This document shows, piece after piece, positions 7,073-33,252 of a stretch of 64,000 bases of DNA (position 1 is its first letter; the number at the start of each line of letters is the position of its first letter). The notes under the pieces were generated by a model, which did not search any database, was not told where the DNA came from, and saw only the letters and a program-made list of their open reading frames with translations. Both the position numbers and the translations under genes were made by a program. Source of the stretch: Dehalococcoidia bacterium (GTDB taxonomy: Bacteria; Chloroflexota; Dehalococcoidia; Bin125); contig JAJEJC010000007.1 in the NCBI GenBank assembly GCA_022828105.1, forward strand, positions 454,885 to 518,884. The letters run 5' to 3'.

Positions 7073-8575
7073 CAGCTTGCGCATCTGCGGGAAGAGGATC
7101 ACGTCGCGAATGGACTGCGAGTTGGTCAACAACATGGCGAGGCGATCCATGCCCATGCCCAGACCGCCGGTCGGAGGCATGCCGTGTTCCAGGGCAACGA
7201 GAAAGTCCTCGTCCATCTGCTCAGCCTCCTCGTCGCCTTCCGACTTGAGGCGGAGCTGCTCTTCGAATCGCGCGCGTTGATCGACAGGGTCGTTTAGCTC
7301 GGTGTAGGCGTTCGCCAGTTCCCAACCGGCGACGAACAGCTCGAACCGCTCGACCAGCGTCTCGTCATATTCGGTTCGCTTGGCCAGCGGTGAGATCGCA
7401 AGCGGATAGTCGAGCAGGAAGGTCGGTTGGCGCAGATTCGGCTCGACTCTCTCCGAGACCAGCTCATCGAACAGCTTGCCCCAGCCTGCGTTGGGTGGAA
7501 TGCCGATGCCCTGCTCGCGCAGCAAGTCTTCCATGGCTTCGACAGTCGGATAGTCGCGGAAGTCGACTCCGACGTGTTCCTGCACGGCGTCGACCATTGT
7601 GACGCGGCGGAACGGCGGGGTGAAGTCGATCTCACCGTCTGCCCAGGGGACGCGCGTCGATCCGGCGACCTCGGCACTGATGTAGGCAAGACTCTGCTCG
7701 ACCATCTCTGCCACGCCGTGATAGTCGGTGTAGGCCTCGTAGCTCTCCATCATCGTGAACTCGGGGTTCCAGCGATTTCCGATGCCCTCGTTGCGGAACA
7801 GCCTGCCTATCTCGTAGACCTTGTCGAACCCGCCGACAATCAGTCGCTTCAAGTGCAGCTCCAGCGCAATCCGCAATTGCCGGGGCTCGTCGAGCGCGTT
7901 GAGGTGCGTCAGGAACGGTCTCGCCGCCGCGCCGCCCGCCTCGGTCTGCAGGACCGGCGTTTCCACTTCGAGGAATCCACGAGCGTCCATGAACCGACGC
8001 ATGGCAGAGATCACCTCCGAGCGGCGGCGCAGGACCTCCTTGGCATCGTGATTGGCGATCAGATCGAGGTATCGCTGTCGATAACGGGTCTCGATGTCCT
8101 GCAGCCCGTGGTACTTCTCCGGCGGTGGACGCAGCGACTTGGTCAGCATGGCGAGGCGCTCGGCCTGAACGGAGATCTCGCCGCGCCGGGAGCGGATCAG
8201 CGGTCCCGAAGCTTCAATGAAATCGCCGAGATCGAACGCATCAAGCAGCGACCATGCGTCACCAAGCGCGCGCTCGCTGGCCAGTATCTGGATTGCCGCC
8301 GAGTCGTCCTCGATATCTACAAACGCGATCCTGCCCATGTTGCGCAGCGCTGTGATCCGGCCGGCAAGCGTGACCACGGGACCGTCGGAGTCGGGAGTGC
8401 GCGCTTCATGATCTTCGAACATTCGGCGGCCAGCCGCGATGTCGTGCGTTCTGGCGGTGCGCGGCGGATACGGCTCGACGCCCTGGGCCCGCAAGGCTTC
8501 CGCCTTGGCCTGACGCTCGGCGATGATCTCACGCAAGTAGGGCGTTTCTGAACCAGTCGTCGAGGATTGAGTCAT
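7064..8575 (-). CDS. lysS: Lysyl-tRNA synthetase, class II
   Basis: A 503-residue class II lysyl-tRNA synthetase. The N-terminal OB-fold anticodon-binding domain (GRITALRNMGRIAFVDIED, around residues 70-90) is followed by the catalytic core. Motif 1 is in FLEVETPVLQ, motif 2 in RNEGIGNRWNPEFTMMESY, and motif 3 is GGLGMGMDRLAMLL near the C-terminus. The length is normal. It lies 56 nt downstream of the greA-like gene in the same direction, the common bacterial greA-lysS arrangement, so cotranscription is likely. Confidence 0.97.
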   Translation of the reverse strand: MTQSSTTGSETPYLREIIAERQAKAEALRAQGVEPYPPRTARTHDIAAGRRMFEDHEARTPDSDGPVVTLAGRITALRNMGRIAFVDIEDDSAAIQILASERALGDAWSLLDAFDLGDFIEASGPLIRSRRGEISVQAERLAMLTKSLRPPPEKYHGLQDIETRYRQRYLDLIANHDAKEVLRRRSEVISAMRRFMDARGFLEVETPVLQTEAGGAAARPFLTHLNALDEPRQLRIALELHLKRLIVGGFDKVYEIGRLFRNEGIGNRWNPEFTMMESYEAYTDYHGVAEMVEQSLAYISAEVAGSTRVPWADGEIDFTPPFRRVTMVDAVQEHVGVDFRDYPTVEAMEDLLREQGIGIPPNAGWGKLFDELVSERVEPNLRQPTFLLDYPLAISPLAKRTEYDETLVERFELFVAGWELANAYTELNDPVDQRARFEEQLRLKSEGDEEAEQMDEDFLVALEHGMPPTGGLGMGMDRLAMLLTNSQSIRDVILFPQMRKLSD

Positions 8576-23203: not shown

Positions 23204-24711
23204 CAATAGCCTCGGACTCCTCGAGCCCCGGACCCGGCGCGCGAGCGCTCTTCCGCCAGGTCGAGCGCGGTAAACATGCCCATCGCCTTGTTCACCGTCT
23301 CGTCGAACTCGAACGTGGGCGTCGAGTCGAAGACGATGCCGCCGCCGGCCTGCACCGAGGCGACGCCGTCCTGCATGATGATCGTGCGAATCGTGATCGC
23401 CGTCTCCATGTTGCCGCCGAAGCCGAAGTAGCCAAGCGCTCCGGCATATGGGCCGCGCTGATCCTCCTCCAACTCGGAGATGATTTCCATCGCGCGGATC
23501 TTGGGCGCGCCCGAGACGGTGCCGGCCGGAAACGTGGCCCGAACGGCGTCAAACGAACTGGCGCCCTCGGCGAGGTCGGCCTCGACGTGGGAGACCAGGT
23601 GCATGACGTGGCTGTAGCGCTCAACATCGAGCTCCTGGGTGACCCGAACCGTGCCCGGCTTGGCGACGCGGCCGATGTCGTTGCGGCCCAGGTCGAGCAA
23701 CATCACGTGCTCGGCAATCTCCTTTTCGTCGCTTCGCAGTTCGGCTTCCAGCGCGCGATCTTCATCGTCGTCCAGGCCCCGTCGGCGAGTGCCGGCGATC
23801 GGGTGCGTTGACACCTTGCCGTCCTCGACAATCACCAACAGTTCGGGAGATGTCCCGACGATCTGGTGGTCGTCCATCTCCAGATAGTACGTATAGGGCG
23901 AGGGATTGACCGTGCGCAGCGTGCGATAGACGTTGAACGGGTGCACAAACGTCTCGCGCGAGAAGCGCTGGGAGTAGACGCATTGGATGATGTCCCCGGC
24001 GACGACGTAGTCGATGATCTGCTTGACATCGGAGAAGTACGCCTCTCGCTCCATGTTGGAGCGGATCGCGCTGGTGTGACCGACCGGCTCAGGCGCGTCG
24101 CCGGGCGGAATCGGCGGGCCGGACTGCAATCGTTCGACCAGTTCGTCAATCCGGAATTCGGCCGCTCGGTAGGCCGCTTCGACATCGCCGTCGAGGCGCG
24201 CGTGCGTCACGACCTTGATCACGTGCTTGAGATGGTCGAAGAGCAGCACGGTGTCGACGAATTGAAACAACGCCTCGGGCAGACCATGCGGGTCGTGACC
24301 GGCGGGTTGTACTCGCGGCTCGAAGTGCCGGATCGATTCGTAGCCGAGGTATCCGACCGCGCCGCCATGAAAGGGCGGCAGGTCGGGGTTGGGTACGAGA
24401 TCGAAGCGGCTGAGTTCGGATTCCACTTCGTTGAGCGGATCGACATCGCCGCCCGACGGCGCGCGGAACACCCGGTACGGCTCGGTGCCGATGAAGGAGT
24501 AGCGACTCGGACGCTCGCCGCCCTCTACCGATTCGAGCAGGAACGAGTACGCGCCGCGTTTGACCTTGAGAAAGGCGGAGACGGGTGTTTCGAGGTCGGC
24601 CAGGACTTCGCGATAGATCGCGGCGAAATTGCCTCGGCCGGACGCAGCGGCATCGGCAGCCAACTGCTTGAATTCGTCGAGGCTAGGGGTGAGTTCACCG
24701 GTTGACGGCAT
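23203..24711 (-). CDS. trpE: Anthranilate synthase component I
   Basis: A 502-residue chorismate-using enzyme. The ATG at 24711 has CAGGAG upstream and gives the normal start; longer readings to 25278 run through the promoter and leader. The N-terminal part has the feedback site LLESVEGGERPSRYSFIG (Ser of LLES binds tryptophan in homologues). The C-terminal catalytic part has IQCVYSQRFS, HPIAGTRRRG, ELRSDEKEIAEHVMLLDLGRND, VSGAPKIRAMEII and GYFGFGGNMETAITIRT. First gene of the operon. Confidence 0.96.
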   Translation of the reverse strand: MPSTGELTPSLDEFKQLAADAAASGRGNFAAIYREVLADLETPVSAFLKVKRGAYSFLLESVEGGERPSRYSFIGTEPYRVFRAPSGGDVDPLNEVESELSRFDLVPNPDLPPFHGGAVGYLGYESIRHFEPRVQPAGHDPHGLPEALFQFVDTVLLFDHLKHVIKVVTHARLDGDVEAAYRAAEFRIDELVERLQSGPPIPPGDAPEPVGHTSAIRSNMEREAYFSDVKQIIDYVVAGDIIQCVYSQRFSRETFVHPFNVYRTLRTVNPSPYTYYLEMDDHQIVGTSPELLVIVEDGKVSTHPIAGTRRRGLDDDEDRALEAELRSDEKEIAEHVMLLDLGRNDIGRVAKPGTVRVTQELDVERYSHVMHLVSHVEADLAEGASSFDAVRATFPAGTVSGAPKIRAMEIISELEEDQRGPYAGALGYFGFGGNMETAITIRTIIMQDGVASVQAGGGIVFDSTPTFEFDETVNKAMGMFTALDLAEERSRAGSGARGVRGY

Positions 24712-24782
24712 GGGAACAGGCTCCTGGGATGCACGCGGTGCGCTGCGGGATGCGTTGCAAGCGGCCGCGTCGGCGGGACGAC

Positions 24783-24884
24783 TTAGTCTGCGCCTCGCCA
24801 GACCCCCTGGCCGCCCGACGTATGGCAGAGCGCGGACAGCCGCGTGCGCGGTCCCATCTCGCCCATTGACCACAGCGCGGACAT
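24783..24884 (-). CDS. Possible trp leader peptide
   Basis: A 33-codon open frame on the trpE transcript: ATG at 24884 with AGGAG 7-8 nt upstream, opening MSALWSMGEM, with Trp codons at positions 5 and 29, ending at TAA 24783. It begins about 20 nt after the predicted transcription start and 70 nt before trpE. Two separated Trp codons are weaker than the tandem Trp of classical trpL, and no clear U-rich terminator was found between it and trpE, so attenuation is possible but not shown. Confidence 0.4.
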   Translation of the reverse strand: MSALWSMGEMGPRTRLSALCHTSGGQGVWRGAD

Positions 24885-24907
24885 CGCGTGCTCCTGTTCC
24901 TGTCAGA

Positions 24908-24935
24908 ATCCTACGGCAGTCGTCCGCGTTGTCAA
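24908..24935 (-). promoter_or_regulatory. Predicted trpE operon promoter
   Basis: On the minus strand, a perfect -35 TTGACA (24935-24930), a 16-nt spacer and TAGGAT (24913-24908) as -10. The start of transcription would fall near 24901, just ahead of the candidate leader peptide. Confidence 0.6.
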
Positions 24936-24996
24936 ACCTCGCGTGCGACACATACCGGTGGTATGAAGCTCCAACGCTGATCGAGCGCTCGCCGAT

Positions 24997-25026
24997 TTGT
25001 TGCCGCATACCCTTCCGTGCTACTCT
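24997..25026 (+). promoter_or_regulatory. Weak predicted promoter of the birA-side leader RNA
   Basis: TTGTTG (24997-25002), an 18-nt spacer and TACTCT (25021-25026). The match is only moderate, but it would start RNA near 25033, immediately before the strong ribosome site at 25037. It is back to back with the trpE promoter. Confidence 0.35.
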
Positions 25027-25053
25027 CCGAGGCAGGAAAGGAGGTGATGCAAC

Positions 25054-25119
25054 TTGGGACATAGTCAACGATCGCCCAGGTACCGACGACGCAGCGCAGT
25101 GGAGGTGGGCGCCTCCTAG
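25054..25119 (+). CDS. Very short ORF in the leader before birA (21 codons)
   Basis: A TTG-initiated 21-codon frame ending in TAG at 25117. It reads M-GHSQRSPRYRRR-SAVEVGAS, strongly basic in the middle. It follows one of the best ribosome sites in the window, AAAGGAGGTGAT (25037-25048), with GGAGG 9 nt from the TTG. An ATG at 25047 would give only MQLGT and is too close to the site. The ORF overlaps the 5' arm of a long RNA helix, the layout of a regulatory upstream ORF. Not recognised as a named leader peptide. Confidence 0.45.
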   Translation: MGHSQRSPRYRRRSAVEVGAS

Positions 25120-25154
25120 CCGCTGACACCAAACGTCGCCCGGATACCTGGGCG
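25073..25154 (+). ncRNA. Long-range RNA helix in the pre-birA leader
   Basis: CGCCCAGGTACCG (25073-25085) pairs with CGGATACCTGGGCG (25141-25154): 13 base pairs with a single bulged A. CGACG (25087-25091) then pairs with CGTCG (25134-25138). Inside lies a smaller hairpin GGAGG-TGGGCG-CCTCC (25101-25116). The 5' arm is inside the 21-codon ORF. CTGGGCG (25148-25154) can also pair with CGCCCAG (25174-25180) in the following terminator-like hairpin, so two alternative folds exist. Pairings are read by eye; no energies were calculated. Confidence 0.55.
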
Positions 25155-25161
25155 AACCACG

Positions 25162-25198
25162 ACGACCCCGAGCCGCCCAGCTCGGGGTCGTGTCGTTT
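25162..25198 (+). terminator. Strong hairpin before birA, terminator or attenuator
   Basis: ACGACCCCGAGC (25162-25173), loop CGCCCA, GCTCGGGGTCGT (25180-25191): a 12-bp GC-rich stem followed by GTCGTTT. The U tract is short, so termination strength is uncertain. It lies 20 nt before the birA start and would either end the short leader RNA or attenuate birA. Confidence 0.55.
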
Positions 25199-25217
25199 AA
25201 CGCTCTAGCCTTGTTCC

Positions 25218-26048
25218 ATGAGCGCTCAGGATCTGCTCCCGCCTCACCAACGACTCGACCTGGACTGCGTTCGGTCAATGCTCGCCACTCGCAAGATTGG
25301 TCGAACCGTGCGCTACCGCGTGCAGACCACCTCGACCATGGACGACGCCCGCCGGCTCGCCGCCGATGGCGCGCCTCACGGCACGGTGGTCGTCGCCGAC
25401 GAACAGACCGCCGGACGCGGCACCAAGGGCCGCATCTGGGTCTCTCCGCCGGGACAGAGCATCCACGCGACGATCATCGTGCGTCCCGAAGTCGAACAAC
25501 TCAAGCGTCTCAGCATCATCAGTCCCGTCGCGGCCGCGGACGCCGTGCTCGCGACGTCGCCACTCGAACCGGAAATCAAGTGGCCCAACGACATCCAGAT
25601 CGCGGCGCGCAAGCTGGGCGGAATCCTGATCGAAGCCGAATGGGATGCCGACGGCCCAACTTGCGCGCTGATCGGCATCGGCCTGAATGTCAACTTCGAT
25701 CCCGCTCCCTGGGCTACTCAGATCGATCGTCCCGCCACCAGCCTGATGATTGAACTCGGAGAACGCCGGCGACGTGAGCCTGTGCTCGCCGCGCTGCTCA
25801 ATGCGTTCGAGCTTCGCTATCTCCAGGCCGCCTCTGCCCCGCACGCCTTGCACGAATCCTGGCGATCCCGGCTCAATACCCTCAATCGTTCGGTAACGAT
25901 CACGTCGCCGAGCGGCGAGGAGTTTCACGGCACGGCGACCGACGTCGAGCCGAGCGGCGCGCTGGTCGTTGCAGGCGGCGGGGGCGAGCTGCGCTCCTTC
26001 ATCGCTGGCGAAGTCACGCTCCGAGAAGCCGACGCACCCAGCGCGTAA
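25218..26048 (+). CDS. birA: Biotin--[acetyl-CoA-carboxylase] ligase
   Basis: A 276-residue biotin protein ligase: makes biotinyl-5'-AMP and attaches biotin to carboxylase carrier domains. Core motifs: TTSTMDDARRLAADGAPHGT, the biotin/ATP loop QTAGRGTKGRIWVSPPG (GRGR/K motif), EIKWPNDIQIAARKLGGIL and IGIGLNVNF. A C-terminal SH3-like domain (GEEFHGTATDVEPSGALVV) is present. There is no N-terminal winged-helix repressor domain, so it is a group I ligase. The ATG at 25218 has no clear ribosome site. The last 35 nt overlap the convergent repeat-protein gene. Confidence 0.95.
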   Translation: MSAQDLLPPHQRLDLDCVRSMLATRKIGRTVRYRVQTTSTMDDARRLAADGAPHGTVVVADEQTAGRGTKGRIWVSPPGQSIHATIIVRPEVEQLKRLSIISPVAAADAVLATSPLEPEIKWPNDIQIAARKLGGILIEAEWDADGPTCALIGIGLNVNFDPAPWATQIDRPATSLMIELGERRRREPVLAALLNAFELRYLQAASAPHALHESWRSRLNTLNRSVTITSPSGEEFHGTATDVEPSGALVVAGGGGELRSFIAGEVTLREADAPSA

Positions 26049-29000
26049 AGGCCGAAGTCGCCCCGGTCACAATCAACGACGGAGCCGCAACCTTGCCGTC
26101 CGTCGGCATTTGTTGCCAGGACCCCGCAATCAGGTCAAGCACACATCCGCCCAGCAAGCGCGCCGCCTCCAGGCCGGCGAGCGAGACCTCGACGCCCTGC
26201 GCTCGCGGCGCGCCGTTTGGATCCTGCAGTTCCAACAGCCATCCGCTGACCTGGTTGCCCGCCGAACCGTCCGCGCAAGCCGGTGGAACCTGTTCGAGCA
26301 GTCGCATCAGCCGCCCCGCGTTGCTCAGTCGAGAGACGGAGATCCCCGTTGCGTCCTTCAACGAATCGGGGAGTTGAACCGACAATCGCAAACCACCGAC
26401 CATTACAGTCTGGACGCCGTCGCCCGGCGCCGCGCCGAATCGAGCGCCGTCCGCCGACGCGAATGCTCGCGATAGCTCCCGCTCAAACGACGTCGTGCCG
26501 CCGCTGGCTCGCAGCCTGGCCTGCTCGACGAGCAGCTCGTCGGTTCTCGGCGATGGTGTGAGATTCTCCGCCGACATGTCGAACACCGCTAACGGCAGGC
26601 CCGAGCGATCTCGGACCATTCCTCCGCTTCCCGGCGAATAGCGCAATCGTGTGGCATCAAGTGACGTCACCGCCTCCATCAGCGTCAGGGTGATCGTCTC
26701 ATCCGCCCATTCCAGGCCAGAGACGCCGATCTCTCGGTGACCCGCAAGGACAACGAAGTCGGCGGCCGGCGCATCGATCGCACCGATTTGTTGATTGAGT
26801 ACCAGCACTACCTCGCGCGCGTTGACGGTGGCCGAGATCGCAAGCGGCGCAGTCTCCGTGTAATTCTGTACCACGAACCCGCCGCTGGTCACGAGCACGC
26901 CGCTGAGTCCGGCCAGTCCATTCCGCCCTTGCAAGATGTACACCACGCCGAACAGGTCCAGGTCGTCCGGCAGGCTGTGCTTCAGTTGCAACTGCACCGA
27001 AGAGCCGCTGATCGTGACCGACGCGATCTCGACTTCCAGGTCGGGTCCCACCAATGAAAACCAGGCAGCAGCAACGGTTCGTTGGAGCAGCGGTTGATCG
27101 AAATTGAGGATGACCAGATCATCCAGGCCGAACCCGGTGGTGAACTTGGGCGGCTCGGTCTGATTGACAATCGGGACGGACAGGCTGCCAACGGTGAGGC
27201 CACCGCCCTGCAGCGACGTTCCTGAGTATGTCAGGGTCGTCTCCGCGTCGGCGTCGATGCCCGGAGACTCGAGTTGCAACGTGAGCACCCGGCCTTCGAT
27301 CCCTTGCACCTCAGTCACGCGACCATTGGCAGTAATCGCGAACTCCGATGCGCTGGGCAGCGACGGATCAAGCGGCTGGTCAAAGGTCAGCTCGAGCCGG
27401 TCCGTTACTGCAACTGCAGACACCGCGCACGGAGCAGCGCGTTCAACGGCGCGCTCCAGTGAAATCGTCGGCGAGCCGTCCGACGGCAACCAGGCGATCG
27501 TCAGTGAGTCGCCGATGCACACCGCTGCATCCGGAACAAGACGAATCATGCCTGCGCCTTGATCGACCGTGAGTGCTCGTGACTCGCCATTGACCTGGAG
27601 CGACCACCCTTGATCGGTAAGCCGTGTGCCTGCGACAAGTGTCAGTTCCAGCGCACCGTGATCAGATTCGACGCAAACCAACCCAAGCGTCTGGTCGATC
27701 AGGTTCTCCAGCGCGAACCTGAATCCCACGATCGGGCGGTCGTCATCGTCGAGCCAGGCGTTCTCGTTCGGCGAGTAGGCAAGAGCCAAGGCTGCGCACT
27801 CAGGTACCGAGCGCTGCAGATCGACGGTCAGGCTCTGCCGCTCTGCACGTACCTGTTTGACCGCGACCATTTCCTGGTCTGTAGTCACACGCAGTGGATC
27901 GGAGCTGAGATTCGCATCCTCTCGCAACGCCCCGTCGAATGCGACGACGATCTTCGAAGGCTCGGCCCGGTCGAACGTCTTGCCCGTTGGCGCCGCAGCC
28001 GTCACGTTGGTCACACTGATCGACGCGAACGAAGCCACGACGTTCTCCGGCAGTGACGTGTCCCTGAGATTCCACTTGGCGCCATCAACCGACTGCACCT
28101 GGTAGCTCAGCTTCACGGTGTCGCCTCTGCTCGTCCGTTCGTCAAGCCGCAGCGTGACCGTGTTCCCCGAAACCTCCACTTCCGCAATCGACGCTACCTC
28201 TGACGAGGCTGCACCTGAGAGTGTTCGTTCAACCGTGAACCATGTCGGATTGTTGGCCGCGGTGCAGTCGAAGCCGGCGACGTTGGCTTCCAGCCACTCA
28301 CAGTTCGGTGGCGGAACGTAGTCGTCGTCCGAGTCCAACGTCTGGTCAAACTCAATCAGAATCAGATCGCGGTTGACACCCGCGCTCGTCAGTTGGGGCG
28401 CGACGTCAACGTTGTTCGTGATGTCAATGCTGAATGTCGCAACGCGATTGCCGTCGCCTTGTTGTTCCGGATCGCCGTCATCATCCCGCAGACCGCCGGA
28501 TTCTGGCTGGGTATAGCTCAGCTCGGCGGTCGCGCCTTCGCGGATCCAATGCTCTGCCGTGAACTCAATCAGCAGCTGATCGCCTTCCGAGCGATCGGAG
28601 TCGACAGTGACTGCCTTGATCTCCAATGCAGGCGTGAATGCAAACCACGATGAGTCCAGGGAGCCGGTCGGGTCCAGGCGCTGGTCGAAACGCAACACGA
28701 CTCGATTGGCTCCCGGTACTGATCCAGACGCATCGGCGCTGGCCGATACGGGGAACGGCGCGTAGTCAGTCGCGTTGCCGACCGACTTGGTGAAACCGAG
28801 GGCCAGTACGCCGCTAGCGCTCGCGAGACCGCCCACGTCGGGCGCCGAGTAGGTGAGTTCGTAGTCGGCGTCCTCGGTCGCCGACGGCGTCACGCCCAAC
28901 GTCACCGTCGAGCCCGCTACGCTCGCGGTCTCAACCTTCAGGTTGCCCGATTCAACTGTGAACCAAGCCGCCTTGACACTGACGTCCTCGTCCAACGCTC

Positions 29001-32000
29001 GATCGAACACCAACGAAAGCGAAGTGTCGTCCAGCGTCGCCGATTCCGGCGATGGGGCGGTCTTGGTCAGATTCTTGAGCTGGTAGTTGTTGATCTGAGC
29101 GCGTCGTTCGCCGTCCTCATCTTCTCGAATCCGAATCGTTCCGGTCGATGGAAAGTACCTGACGAGCACAGTGTCCAGCTCATCGACCGCTTTCGACAGC
29201 GCTATCACGATCTTGCCGACGCCAGCCGGGCCGTCGTTCGACACCTGAATAGAGTCGACGCTGATGTTGCTGTCGATCCCCGACACAGTGAAATGGTCGG
29301 TCGGATAGCCGTCCCTAAAGCGCGTGTCGTCGAAGATGTCCTGATCGAGGGTGATCACGATCATGTCGTCCTTGACTGTCCCCGCCGCGGGTTCCGGCGC
29401 CGTATCCGTCTGGTTGTCCAGCGAGAGGTTGAACGAGGCCGAACGCTTCCCACCTGGATCAGCGAGCCCACCGCTGCTCGGCTGGACGTAACTGAGCGTT
29501 GCCATCTCGTCTTCGACCAACGACCGTGTGAGCGTCACCGTCAATCCGTCGTCGCCGTCGTATGACACCGCGGACACGCCCGCCGTTGGGTCAGCGCTGA
29601 CACCAAAGTCCGTTGCAGCCAGTGCAGAATCGCTGTCGATCGTCTGGTCGAAGACGAGCGAGATGGTCTCCTCGTTCGCGGTCGCCGACTGCACCTGGGG
29701 CGCAACATCGGTCTGATTGGTGACTGTTTCGGAGAACGAAGCCACCGTTGCAGCATCAGAGGTTGCGAGCGGCGACTCCGTTGGCGCGGTGTACGTCAGT
29801 GTGTACCCAGCACCCTCGGACAGCGCCATCGCGAGGCCAAGGCTCACGCTCATCGCGCTCACGTTCACCGAGTCAATAGACGGCCCGTCCTCTCCCAGCG
29901 AAAACGCCGACGCATCCGGCGTGGAATCGGTGTCCAGCTCCAGTGAAAAGGTGATTTCGATCTTGCGCTCATTGGCCGCAACCGAGCGGATCAACGGCAC
30001 CGGCGTCTCGTTGGTCACCCCCAGCGACGCGAACGACTCGGCGAACAGCGCCTGCCCGGAACGCTTGATCCCGTCGGTTTGGGGCTTGGTGTAGCCGACC
30101 GTGATCGCGTCGTCGTGGACGACGGCGGCGCTGAGCGCAAGCGTGACGGTCGATTCAGCGATCGAGACCGAGCTGACAGTTGCAGTGGCGCCGGACAGGC
30201 TGAACGCCGAGGCCGAAGGTTTGGACATGGTGTCGAGCGCCCGGTCGAAGCTGATCGCGAGCGTCGACCCATTGACCGTCGCCCCCGTCGGTCGCGGCAA
30301 GCCGTCGGCGCCGTTCGTCACCGACTGTGCCGACCATGAGTCAACCAGGTGTCCGCCGCTCAGGGACTGGAGTTTGCCATCCATGGCTCCGGTGGGCTGT
30401 GTGTATGCGACGGTGATCGTCTCGCCGAGATCCGCCTTCGGCGAGAGCGTCAGCGCGACCGTCGAGCCGTCGACCGATACGCCGCTCACCGCCGCGGTCC
30501 CGCCCGCGAGCGTGAACGCCGACGACTCGGGTACTCCCGCCGAGGTCTCCAGCAGCGCCTTGCTCATCGTGATCGAGAGCGTGTCGCCAGCGGCGTTGAT
30601 CGCGGCCGAGACGAATGTGGGCGTCGGATCTGGCGTCGCATTCGTCACTTCCAGCGAGCTGAACGACGCGGTGAACAGTGCCTGCCCGGAGCGCTTGATT
30701 CCGCCGGTTTCGGGCTTGGTGTAGCTGACGACGATCGTTTCGTCGTGGGCGACGGCGGCACTGAGTGCCAGGCTGACGGTTGAGCCTGCAATCGAGACCG
30801 AGCTAACAGTCGCAGTGGCGCCAGTCGGGCTGAACGTCGAAGCCGTCGGCGTGGAAGCGGTGTCCAGTGCCCGGTCGAAGGTGATCGTCAGAGTCGATCT
30901 GTTGACTGTTGCCCCTGTCGGTCGCGGCACGCCGTCAGCGTCGTTGGTCACCGACTGCGCGGACCACGAGTCGACCAGGTGCCCGCCGCTCAGGGACTGG
31001 AGCTTGCCGTCTTCGGCAGCGGTGGGCTGGGTGTAGGCGATGGTGGTCGTCTCGCCGACATCCGCCTTCGGAGAGAGCGCCAGCGAGACCGTCTTGCCCT
31101 TCACGGACACGCCGCTCACCGCCGCGTTTCCGCCCGAGTGCGTGAACGCCGACGCCCCAGGCACACCCGTCGAGGTCGCGAGCAGCGCCTTGCTCATCGT
31201 GATCGTGAGCGTGTCGCCTGCGGCATTGATCGCTGCCGAAACGAACGTGGGCGTCGGATCGACCGTTGCATTGGTCACTTCCAGCGAGCTGAACGACGCG
31301 GAAAACAGCGCCTGCCCGGAGCGCTTGATTCCGCCGATTTCGGGCTTTGTGTAGCTGACGACGATCGTGTCGTCGTGGGCGACGGCGGCACTGAGTGCCA
31401 GGCTGACGGTTGAACCTGCAATCGAGACCGAACTGACAGTCGCAGTGGCGCCAGTCAGGCTGAACGCCGATGCCGCTGGCGTCGACATGTTGTCCAGGGT
31501 CCGATCGAAGCGAACTGCGAGGGACGAGCCGTTGACTGTCGCTCCAGTCGGTCGCGGCACGCCATCTGCGCCGTTGGTGACCGACTGCGCAGTCCACGAG
31601 TCGACCAAGTGCCCGCCGCTCAGGGACTGCAACTTGCCATCCGTGGCGCCGGTCGGCTGCGTGTAGGCGACTGTGATCGTCTCGCCGACATCTGCCTTCG
31701 GAGACAGCGTCAGCGCAACAGTCGCGCCCTTGACCGACACACCGCTCACCGCCGCAGTCCCGCCCGCAAGCGTGAACGCCGACGCCCCAGGCACACCCGT
31801 CGAGGTCGCGAGCAGCGCCTTGCTCATCGTGATCGAAAGCGTGTCGCCGGCCGCGTTGATCGCTGCCGAGACGAACGTGGGCAAGTTGCTTGGCGTGTTG
31901 TTGGTCACTACCTGATTGCTGAAGCTGTCGGCGTCGCGATTGTTGCGGGCTTCGATCCTCGGCGACTCTTCGGGCTTCGCGTATGTGACGGTCAAAGAGT

Positions 32001-33252
32001 CGCTCGGCAACACCGCCGCCGACAACGTCAGTGTGACCACACTGCCGCTGAAGCTGATTGCGCTGACGCTTACATCCTCCACGCCGCCAACGGTCAATGC
32101 CGACGCAGGGGCGACGCTCTTGAGTGGCATGTCGAACGTGATCGTGAGCGTGTTGCCATTGACGGCCGCGCTATCGACCACCGGTTTGGTCGTCGGGGTC
32201 GAGCTGACAACTGATTGACTAGTGAAGTCTGCTGCCTGTTTTGCGCCGTCGGCCTGCTGCAATGGCGAGTCACTGGGAGGCGTGTACGAGAGTTGAAACC
32301 CAGGATCCAGGTTGCCTCGGATTACTTCCGATACGGTCAGCGAGACCGTACTGCCCGACACGGCAACCGAGTTAATCGCCAACTCGTAGGGCTTGTCGCT
32401 GATTGTGAAGGACGACTTGTCGGGCACGCTGTCTTCGTCGAGCGCTTCCGAGTAGGTCAACGTGATCACGTCCCACAGCGCAGTGGCCGAGTCCAGTTCG
32501 GGCGGGCTGTCGACGCGGTTGGTCACGTCGCGAGCGGTCCAACTCTGGACAAGCTGCTCGCCTTGATCCGCATCCTGGGGCGGATCTCCGTCGTCGGCAT
32601 CGCTGCGGTCGTATGCAACGGTGACGCTGTCTCCCTCACTGATCGGTGTGCTGCCGAACTGAATCTCCAGCCGCTTGGGATTGCTGGATGTGATGAAGAC
32701 ATCGTTGATAGGCTCTGAGCTTCCGTCGATGTTGGCGGTATAGGCCGCGATCGTCAGCCAACCGTTCTCTCCTGTTGCGACGGCTTCGCAGAAGGTCACG
32801 TAGACGAACCGGCCGGTGGTGTCGGTCTCGATCGACTCGATCTGGGGCGCGTTGTCTGTCCGGTTGGTCACCGCGAGGTTGGCGAAGTCCTGGAGTTCGG
32901 TCCCCGCAGCAGTGATCGTCGATTCGGCCCGCTCGTAGCTCACCGTGATTGGCGTGGAATCGCAGTCCGGGTCCCCAACCGCTTCCGCAAGCGACAACGT
33001 GATTGTGGTTCCGTCGACGCTAGCCGAATCGATGGACAGCGCCGCCTCGCCCGCAGTCGCCGTGAAATCCGACTCTTCGGCCTCGCTGGACGCGTCCACC
33101 GCCGCCGACAGCGTGATTGTCAGCGTGTCTCCGTCGACGCCGGCCGACGACGCGGTCAGCGCGGCCTGCGTCTCCACCAGCTCGGTCAGCAGGTAGAGAA
33201 CCGAAAACGACGCCAGCAGCGCCGCGGTAACCAGAATCGTCGGACGACACAC
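26014..33252 (-). CDS. Giant SwmB-type repeat surface protein (2412 residues)
   Basis: A secreted or surface protein of 2412 residues. GTG start at 33252, hydrophobic N-terminal signal (residues 5-22). It consists almost wholly of about 21 SwmB/Ig-like beta domains of 90-105 residues. Each begins near 'xxSAxVNGxTLTITFDxALD' and ends near 'SFxxxxVTNxT', often with VxYTxP in the middle. Such repeats are known from the cyanobacterial swimming/surface protein SwmB and large adhesins. The C-terminal 160 residues are not of this repeat (includes GDGVQTVMVGGLRLSVQLP). No LPxTG, dockerin or clear C-terminal membrane anchor is seen. Probable adhesin, surface coat or matrix protein. Confidence 0.85.
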   Translation of the reverse strand: MCRPTILVTAALLASFSVLYLLTELVETQAALTASSAGVDGDTLTITLSAAVDASSEAEESDFTATAGEAALSIDSASVDGTTITLSLAEAVGDPDCDSTPITVSYERAESTITAAGTELQDFANLAVTNRTDNAPQIESIETDTTGRFVYVTFCEAVATGENGWLTIAAYTANIDGSSEPINDVFITSSNPKRLEIQFGSTPISEGDSVTVAYDRSDADDGDPPQDADQGEQLVQSWTARDVTNRVDSPPELDSATALWDVITLTYSEALDEDSVPDKSSFTISDKPYELAINSVAVSGSTVSLTVSEVIRGNLDPGFQLSYTPPSDSPLQQADGAKQAADFTSQSVVSSTPTTKPVVDSAAVNGNTLTITFDMPLKSVAPASALTVGGVEDVSVSAISFSGSVVTLTLSAAVLPSDSLTVTYAKPEESPRIEARNNRDADSFSNQVVTNNTPSNLPTFVSAAINAAGDTLSITMSKALLATSTGVPGASAFTLAGGTAAVSGVSVKGATVALTLSPKADVGETITVAYTQPTGATDGKLQSLSGGHLVDSWTAQSVTNGADGVPRPTGATVNGSSLAVRFDRTLDNMSTPAASAFSLTGATATVSSVSIAGSTVSLALSAAVAHDDTIVVSYTKPEIGGIKRSGQALFSASFSSLEVTNATVDPTPTFVSAAINAAGDTLTITMSKALLATSTGVPGASAFTHSGGNAAVSGVSVKGKTVSLALSPKADVGETTTIAYTQPTAAEDGKLQSLSGGHLVDSWSAQSVTNDADGVPRPTGATVNRSTLTITFDRALDTASTPTASTFSPTGATATVSSVSIAGSTVSLALSAAVAHDETIVVSYTKPETGGIKRSGQALFTASFSSLEVTNATPDPTPTFVSAAINAAGDTLSITMSKALLETSAGVPESSAFTLAGGTAAVSGVSVDGSTVALTLSPKADLGETITVAYTQPTGAMDGKLQSLSGGHLVDSWSAQSVTNGADGLPRPTGATVNGSTLAISFDRALDTMSKPSASAFSLSGATATVSSVSIAESTVTLALSAAVVHDDAITVGYTKPQTDGIKRSGQALFAESFASLGVTNETPVPLIRSVAANERKIEITFSLELDTDSTPDASAFSLGEDGPSIDSVNVSAMSVSLGLAMALSEGAGYTLTYTAPTESPLATSDAATVASFSETVTNQTDVAPQVQSATANEETISLVFDQTIDSDSALAATDFGVSADPTAGVSAVSYDGDDGLTVTLTRSLVEDEMATLSYVQPSSGGLADPGGKRSASFNLSLDNQTDTAPEPAAGTVKDDMIVITLDQDIFDDTRFRDGYPTDHFTVSGIDSNISVDSIQVSNDGPAGVGKIVIALSKAVDELDTVLVRYFPSTGTIRIREDEDGERRAQINNYQLKNLTKTAPSPESATLDDTSLSLVFDRALDEDVSVKAAWFTVESGNLKVETASVAGSTVTLGVTPSATEDADYELTYSAPDVGGLASASGVLALGFTKSVGNATDYAPFPVSASADASGSVPGANRVVLRFDQRLDPTGSLDSSWFAFTPALEIKAVTVDSDRSEGDQLLIEFTAEHWIREGATAELSYTQPESGGLRDDDGDPEQQGDGNRVATFSIDITNNVDVAPQLTSAGVNRDLILIEFDQTLDSDDDYVPPPNCEWLEANVAGFDCTAANNPTWFTVERTLSGAASSEVASIAEVEVSGNTVTLRLDERTSRGDTVKLSYQVQSVDGAKWNLRDTSLPENVVASFASISVTNVTAAAPTGKTFDRAEPSKIVVAFDGALREDANLSSDPLRVTTDQEMVAVKQVRAERQSLTVDLQRSVPECAALALAYSPNENAWLDDDDRPIVGFRFALENLIDQTLGLVCVESDHGALELTLVAGTRLTDQGWSLQVNGESRALTVDQGAGMIRLVPDAAVCIGDSLTIAWLPSDGSPTISLERAVERAAPCAVSAVAVTDRLELTFDQPLDPSLPSASEFAITANGRVTEVQGIEGRVLTLQLESPGIDADAETTLTYSGTSLQGGGLTVGSLSVPIVNQTEPPKFTTGFGLDDLVILNFDQPLLQRTVAAAWFSLVGPDLEVEIASVTISGSSVQLQLKHSLPDDLDLFGVVYILQGRNGLAGLSGVLVTSGGFVVQNYTETAPLAISATVNAREVVLVLNQQIGAIDAPAADFVVLAGHREIGVSGLEWADETITLTLMEAVTSLDATRLRYSPGSGGMVRDRSGLPLAVFDMSAENLTPSPRTDELLVEQARLRASGGTTSFERELSRAFASADGARFGAAPGDGVQTVMVGGLRLSVQLPDSLKDATGISVSRLSNAGRLMRLLEQVPPACADGSAGNQVSGWLLELQDPNGAPRAQGVEVSLAGLEAARLLGGCVLDLIAGSWQQMPTDGKVAAPSLIVTGATSAFTRWVRRLLGA
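30000..31890 (-). repeat. Three tandem 630-bp repeat units inside the giant gene
   Basis: Three near-identical 630-bp units, each coding for 210 residues (two SwmB domains). The landmark CCGCCGCTCAGGGACTG occurs in each unit, with its ten-base blocks at 30351, 30981 and 31611, exactly 630 bp apart. Protein units start TFVSAAINAAGDTL and contain RPTGATVN. The high DNA identity implies recent duplication or gene conversion and likely length variation between strains. Confidence 0.85.

Follow-up and report, generated by a model that had tools for sequence, protein, structure and literature searches.

A conserved element with two Shine-Dalgarno sequences beside birA in Dehalococcoidia: a putative ribosome-trapping mini-gene

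The window analysed here is a 64,000-nt stretch of DNA from a member of the Chloroflexota, class Dehalococcoidia, with close relatives among the Dehalococcoidia/Chloroflexota MAGs of the named collection. At positions 25037-25198 it carries a small element that the initial annotation read as an attenuator-like leader between divergent trpE and birA genes. All of the features listed in that annotation were found where it had placed them; trpE adjoins the element in the window genome but is not adjacent in the relatives that were read. Transcription of the plus strand is predicted to start at about 25032-25034 from the position of a -10 box, TACTCT (25021-25026), with a possible -35 box, TTGTTG (24997-25002), upstream. 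This agrees with the start near 25033 that had been predicted, and the spacing is kept, a TANNNT lying 14-16 nt 5' of GAAAGG in 21/21 loci of the family and f2 and at -18/-19 relative to GGAGG in most of 29 class-wide loci. The first Shine-Dalgarno sequence (SD1, AAAGGAGGTGAT, 25037-25048) is the complement of the 3' tail of 16S rRNA, is invariant in the family alignment and is the sole 12-nt match in the window, with none in a further 400 kb of the genome. It is followed by the mini-ORF LGHSQRSPRYRRRSAVEVGAS (25054-25119), which has a TTG start (its first residue read as M), 21 sense codons and a TAG stop. A long hairpin, P1 (25073-25154), begins within the ORF, with a 5' arm at about 25073-25091 and a 3' arm at about 25134-25154 in which CGCCCAG (25073-25079) pairs with CTGGGCG (25148-25154). 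Between the arms lie GGAGGTG (25101-25107), referred to here as SD2, whose first G is 16 nt 5' of the stop codon and whose GGAGG is 8 nt from the last sense codon, and an anti-SD, CGCCTCCT (25110-25117), for which SD1 (25039-25046) and SD2 are alternative partners. A predicted intrinsic terminator, a 12-bp hairpin with the loop CGCCCA and a weak U-run (25162-25191), has 4 pairs changed on both sides among relatives. The biotin protein ligase gene birA (25218-26048, 276 aa, Pfam PF03099 and PF02237) follows on the same strand, preceded by a -10 box of its own, TAGCCT (25206-25211), and is judged to be a neighbour outside the mini-gene. SD2 and the birA promoter were absent from the initial annotation. 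Directly behind birA the minus strand carries a very long repetitive ORF (26014-33252, 2412 aa).

The element is conserved far above its flanks. In a DNA search it was 86-96% identical within the genus, compared with about 70% for the BirA protein, and about 75-77% identical in genomes G015 and G002. The motif GNAAGGAGGTGRTGCNNNYTGG is present in 19/20 family genomes, at one true place in each, and the genome without it (G011) is a fragmented, 89%-complete assembly. The element is normally single-copy; one extra copy is found in G010 (C12:6089-6267), where SD1 is altered and the adjoining BirA match covers only the first 120 residues, possibly a decaying duplicate. RNAalifold gave no common pairs in the diverse alignment A2, and the model used for wider searches, R1, is a sequence-only model. 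A search with R1, which was built from sequences containing SD2, found counterparts in many other Dehalococcoidia families, usually as one strong site per genome.

The predicted RNA (25033-25205) folds at -79.4 kcal/mol compared with -62.1 +/- 4.1 kcal/mol in dinucleotide shuffles (0/200 as good; z -4.2, which, like the other z-score given here, is not a probability because members share descent). Among 15 sequences from the genus and G015, 8 pairs of P1 and the terminator had changed on both sides compared with 1.7 in shuffles, and covariation cells numbered 13 against 2.6 expected, both values being reached in 0/500 shuffles. This signal was abolished by shifting the pairing partners. In loci L154 and L155 the hairpin is again present, its arms having changed in a compensatory manner (GCGCCCTAGC/GCTAGGGCGC and GTGTCCTAGC/GCTAGGACAC). 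The perfect ribosome site, 21-codon ORF, hairpin and terminator of the initial annotation are therefore not only present but kept in relatives, with covariation in the helices. An Rfam scan at gathering level gave no family match in the window, and in six related loci tRNAs only; a permissive search gave chance-level matches only, the best being Ms_IGR-5 with an E-value of 0.16. Six variants of the mini-ORF peptide likewise had no match among Pfam and NCBIfam profiles. As no match was found in any of these collections, the element represents an RNA family not described before and a variant among the mini-ORF sRNAs.

The proposal of a classical attenuator, in which terminator formation before birA depends on where a ribosome stands on the ORF, draws on the layout in the window, where CTGGGCG is able to pair with the ORF or with the terminator loop, and on a persistent neighbour. 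BirA is codirectional and downstream in 19/19 family loci and adjoins the element in 24/29 class-wide R1 loci. Leader ORFs that overlap a hairpin and are followed by a terminator are also the textbook arrangement of trp-type attenuators. Several results weigh on the other side. TANNNT some 12-14 nt before the start codon is the signature of leaderless genes (PMC3160421), and in a genome sample made up of a 400-kb stretch and the window this motif peaks at -12 to -14 before in-frame starts, with 31 occurrences compared with 6 out of frame. By this peak, leaderless genes are common in the window genome (contig C9). The TANNNT of birA lies exactly at -12 from the ATG, 3' of the terminator, in 17/19 orthologs. 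No SD is visible before birA, so that RNA reading through from the element should translate birA poorly. The terminator therefore does not precede a gene transcribed from the promoter of the leader. In other lineages no codirectional gene follows. The five class-wide loci without BirA all belong to family f17, in which the next gene is convergent in all three clearly readable neighbourhoods. Outside the Dehalococcoidia, the layout of SD1, mini-ORF, anti-SD, hairpin and terminator recurs in Thermoflexus, before a convergent sigma factor gene, in a Caldilineaceae genome, before a convergent epimerase gene, and in two genomes of family f127; in Thermoflexus and f127 SD2 at -16 is absent despite the otherwise similar layout. 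The gene after the element is also convergent in G626. Because the next gene is convergent, there is nothing to attenuate in f17, Thermoflexus, Caldilineaceae and G626.

The alternative pairing also fails to persist. At -11.1 kcal/mol in the window's family (locus L001), the pairing of the 3' arm with the ORF or the terminator loop is available, as had been claimed, but strong pairing with the loop is confined to the genus and G015, the pairing being weak in L019 and absent from L016-L018 and L051. Compensatory changes are seen in P1 and the terminator, but a mutually exclusive antiterminator helix is not conserved beyond close relatives. No conserved regulatory codons or arrest motif were found in the leader peptides, in which only the EV encoded by SD2 is kept; the Arg-rich codons of the window ORF are not retained in other genera, and this ORF has no Trp codon. 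The element therefore differs from trp-type attenuators in its want of a regulated downstream gene, of conserved regulatory codons and of a conserved alternative helix. Because of the leaderless birA promoter, the unconserved antiterminator pairing and the elements without a codirectional downstream gene, the attenuation reading is set aside, and we regard it as very unlikely. The linkage to birA, kept in most Dehalococcoidia loci, counts against the independence of the element, but the constant neighbour may reflect conserved synteny only. At the level of sequence, comparison among relatives establishes the promoter, SD1, the ORF, the position of SD2, the hairpin, the terminator and independence from birA.

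The mini-ORF was studied in 37 unique ORFs from 48 loci. Start codons vary between ATG, TTG, CTG and GTG and stop codons between TAG, TAA and TGA, but position and frame are kept, and in 35/37 the distance from the first G of GGAGG to the start is 13-14 nt. TAG accounts for 27 of the stops, TAA for 9 and TGA for 1, compared with 147/303 (49%) TGA in the genome sample. This scarcity of TGA suggests either that RF1-type termination matters or that the CTAG sequence of the hairpin constrains the stop. The ORF ends in GAG GTN NNN NNN NNN stop in 27/37. SD2 stands precisely three codons ahead of the stop in 27/30, its E codon is GAG in 30/30 (background 55%), its V codon is GTG in 26/30 (background 30%) and the base before the E codon is G in 27/30 (background 33%), although the residue preceding E is variable. 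As these choices are far above background, the nucleotide string GGAGGTG, and not just the peptide, is on the sequence evidence under selection. When pairing with the 16S tail was profiled in 8-nt windows from the stop codon, it peaked at -16 with -11.7 kcal/mol, compared with -2.1 kcal/mol in codon-permuted ORFs; the automatic ORF collection used for this profile held a couple of spurious ORFs, which dilute the peak and do not create it. Ordinary genes of the genome sample have a mean of -1.95 kcal/mol at this position, with 1/303 at or below -9, and none of twenty further short ORFs that follow an equally perfect SD reach -9 at -16. No start codon is found 4-11 nt 3' of SD2 in 33/35 elements, and SD2 is for this reason not the ribosome site of a second gene. 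GGAGG is separated from the start codon of the mini-ORF by 8 nt in most class-wide loci and by 9 nt in the window's family, a spacing close to the 8 nt between the GGAGG of SD2 and the last sense codon. A ribosome whose A site holds the stop codon would therefore have SD2 at an initiation-like spacing. This geometry is a fact of the sequences, and from it an effect on the ribosome may be suspected; whether internal SDs slow ribosomes is debated.

Internal SDs stimulate frameshifts in prfB, where the spacing is short, and in dnaX, where it is longer, and an SD2 near the stop might accordingly drive programmed frameshifting to give a longer real product. The initiation-like spacing of SD2 is unlike either of these, and an unsystematic reading of the loci turned up neither conserved slippery codons nor a longer second frame, which makes this explanation extremely improbable.

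A similar arrangement is found in RNAs of other phyla. Ms_IGR-5 (RF02471), an actinobacterial sRNA, resembles the element in having its own transcription unit, a long SD near the 5' end, a mini-ORF, hairpins, a terminator and, in the genomes of the order that were searched, a copy number of no more than one. In 24 Mycobacteriales loci with a readable SD (from L201-L230) a 12-codon ORF was present in 24/24, with a C-terminus close to RTREVAVR; GAG GTG lies exactly three codons before the stop in all 24 loci, and pairing with the 16S tail peaks at -15/-16 with -10.5 kcal/mol. Ribosome footprints on this RNA have been reported in M. abscessus and M. smegmatis (PMC4974804). The shared layout of SD1, mini-ORF, GAGGTG N9 stop and terminator lies outside the Rfam definition. 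Homology is not shown, the window scoring 16.5 bits against a gathering cut-off of 45; complementarity of SD1 and anti-SD is in contrast to the element little developed (4/25), and the Tsukamurella locus is not beside birA, as far as its ORFs were recognised. Homology of the element to Ms_IGR-5 was considered and rejected: the full-length match is weak, and the Ms_IGR-5 and CC2171 models weakly match unrelated control genomes too.

Relatives of the alphaproteobacterial sRNA CC2171 (RF01867; L231-L253 and L195) resemble the element in having GAAAGGAGGTGATCC near the start, an ORF and, in 8/21, anti-SD complementarity. Some 15-17 nt of the 16S tail can pair with the SD, the ORF has 18-30 codons and often begins (M/V)SHCH, and pairing peaks at -16 with a mean of -4.9 kcal/mol (z -6). 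They differ in their peptide and in a weaker SD2, in the searched genomes they mostly fall below the family cut-off, and homology is not shown; the CC2171 model reported no match at 24700-25300 with E-values up to 5, leaving this region below the gathering cut-off. In Caulobacter, translation was found for two predicted ncRNAs, which may or may not include CC2171, and ribosome pauses coincide with internal SDs (PMC4117421). An RNA of the Armatimonadota type, for which no published description was found, occurs in L076, L083 (near position 7760, minus strand), L092, L094 and L129 and gave no Rfam match in the two loci scanned. Like the element it has a promoter, a perfect SD1, a short ORF and SD2, the last at -17 with -11.8 kcal/mol; it differs in its 10-codon ORF (MADQRGDSGG), in its own set of conserved hairpins and in the codon frame of SD2, which is read as R-G-D and not E-V. 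The likeness of these three kinds of RNA to the element is possibly one of convergence.

These comparisons bear on whether the element is an ordinary short mRNA for a functional micropeptide, in which the C-terminal EV would be a feature of the peptide and SD2 a by-product. The frame is kept while start and stop codons vary, and the Ms_IGR-5 ORFs are constant in length and C-terminus, both of which are in keeping with such a peptide. The GAG-GTG codons and the preceding G are kept beyond any amino-acid need, however, while the remainder of the peptide diverges, and variable columns within the genus number 5/8/9 by codon position, with no clear third-position bias. The Armatimonadota-type RNA codes nearly the same SD2 position in another frame, a further argument for selection on the nucleotides. 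On balance a micropeptide mRNA seems rather unlikely.

The anti-SD was examined for its ability to mask SD1, as the initial annotation had suggested for the CCTCC within it. Thermoflexus, Caldilineaceae, f127 and L051/L052 carry a 16S-tail copy (GCATCACCTC or a variant of it) towards the 3' end of the ORF, and in the window the duplex of SD1 with CGCCTCCT has -20.1 kcal/mol, with 1/200 shuffles as good. SD1:anti-SD pairing beats shuffles at the 5% level in 10/13 Dehalococcoidia and 12/29 independently found class loci, in 6/6 other Chloroflexota (two of which, from f127, were found by a pattern that included the anti-SD and are not independent evidence) and in 1/22 controls. A direct search of 288 class genomes with the anti-SD pattern found one true element (G124) among 6 matches, and controls were matched too. 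The predicted minimum fold has a masked SD1 in Thermoflexus, G626 and L018. In the window, masking as the main resting state was rejected: the equilibrium fold keeps the long hairpin dominant, leaves SD1 about half open and buries the anti-SD in a 6-bp helix with SD2. Pairing beyond shuffles thus holds in the Chloroflexota, but masking is not dominant in the window fold, and modelling leaves it a possible transient or lineage-specific state. Since the predicted fold engages SD2 with the element's anti-SD, SD2 would become accessible only during opening of the hairpin by a ribosome or helicase.

The same complementarity could be read as that of a trans-acting antisense sRNA, whose anti-SD represses other mRNAs through their SDs and whose SD1 is a built-in lock. 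Its excess over controls in Chloroflexota and CC2171 relatives, and the location of the anti-SD in the hairpin loop region in L154/L155, would fit this idea. Burial of the window anti-SD with SD2 would not, nor would the scarcity of complementarity in Ms_IGR-5; no target is known, and the support from f127 is weakened by the way its two members were found. We consider an antisense role unlikely.

Exceptionally long SDs are known elsewhere. The Flavobacterium rpsU mRNA has an extended SD through which bS21 autoregulates and the availability of the anti-SD is sensed (PMC9976891). The likeness to the element is in the length of the SD; rpsU differs in encoding a ribosomal protein and in having one SD, the element being a standalone mini-ORF with two. 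An extended SD was also seen at about 3716 in a Tsukamurella locus (L061), before an ORF of 405-419 aa found in three Tsukamurella genomes, which may encode a DnaJ-like protein; strong complementarity lies just 3' of this SD (-20.6 kcal/mol, 0/200 shuffles), and the site is possibly a thermosensor.

The reading that we favour, with a probability of roughly one half, is that the element is a standalone ribosome-trapping mini-gene of about 160 nt whose product is the ribosome-bound RNA, and that it does not control birA. Weighing against this reading are the pairing of SD2 with the anti-SD in the predicted fold, the lack of SD2 at -16 in the Thermoflexus and f127 RNAs, and the kept linkage to birA. 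From sequence we infer that it is transcribed and translated, that it traps ribosomes and that this serves a purpose. Its own promoter would yield an RNA with the 12-nt SD1 a few bases into the transcript, where ribosome loading would be highly efficient, and the loaded ribosome would translate the 20 or so codons of the mini-ORF. With the stop codon in the A site, the anti-SD of the ribosome would lie opposite SD2, 8 nt 5' of the last sense codon; were the SD helix to re-form there, release or recycling would be slowed and a ribosome or 30S subunit might be parked over the hairpin. The transcript would stop at the element's terminator. Left without a ribosome, it would close into the long hairpin, or in several lineages the anti-SD could mask SD1 instead. 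By analogy with the extended SD of rpsU, it may be conjectured that the ribosome-bound RNA serves to sense, or to absorb, either free ribosomes or the capacity for termination/recycling.

More tentatively, at least four phyla (Chloroflexota, Actinomycetota, Pseudomonadota and Armatimonadota) may carry an unrecognised class of two-SD mini-genes that includes Ms_IGR-5 and CC2171, for neither of which was a function found in the literature searched. In these an SD1 would load the ribosome onto an ORF of 10-30 codons and an SD2 would grip it at the stop, the RNAs acting as ribosome sensors or sinks. If this is true, two Rfam sRNA families, the Chloroflexota family described here and the Armatimonadota-type RNA would share one testable design, and should the cross-phylum SD2 rule hold experimentally, the kind to which the element belongs would qualify as a separate class. 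Several RNAs now listed as non-coding and without a function would then become translated, ribosome-handling RNAs, and with them the question of whether a terminating ribosome is held by SD-anti-SD pairing could be put in a natural setting.
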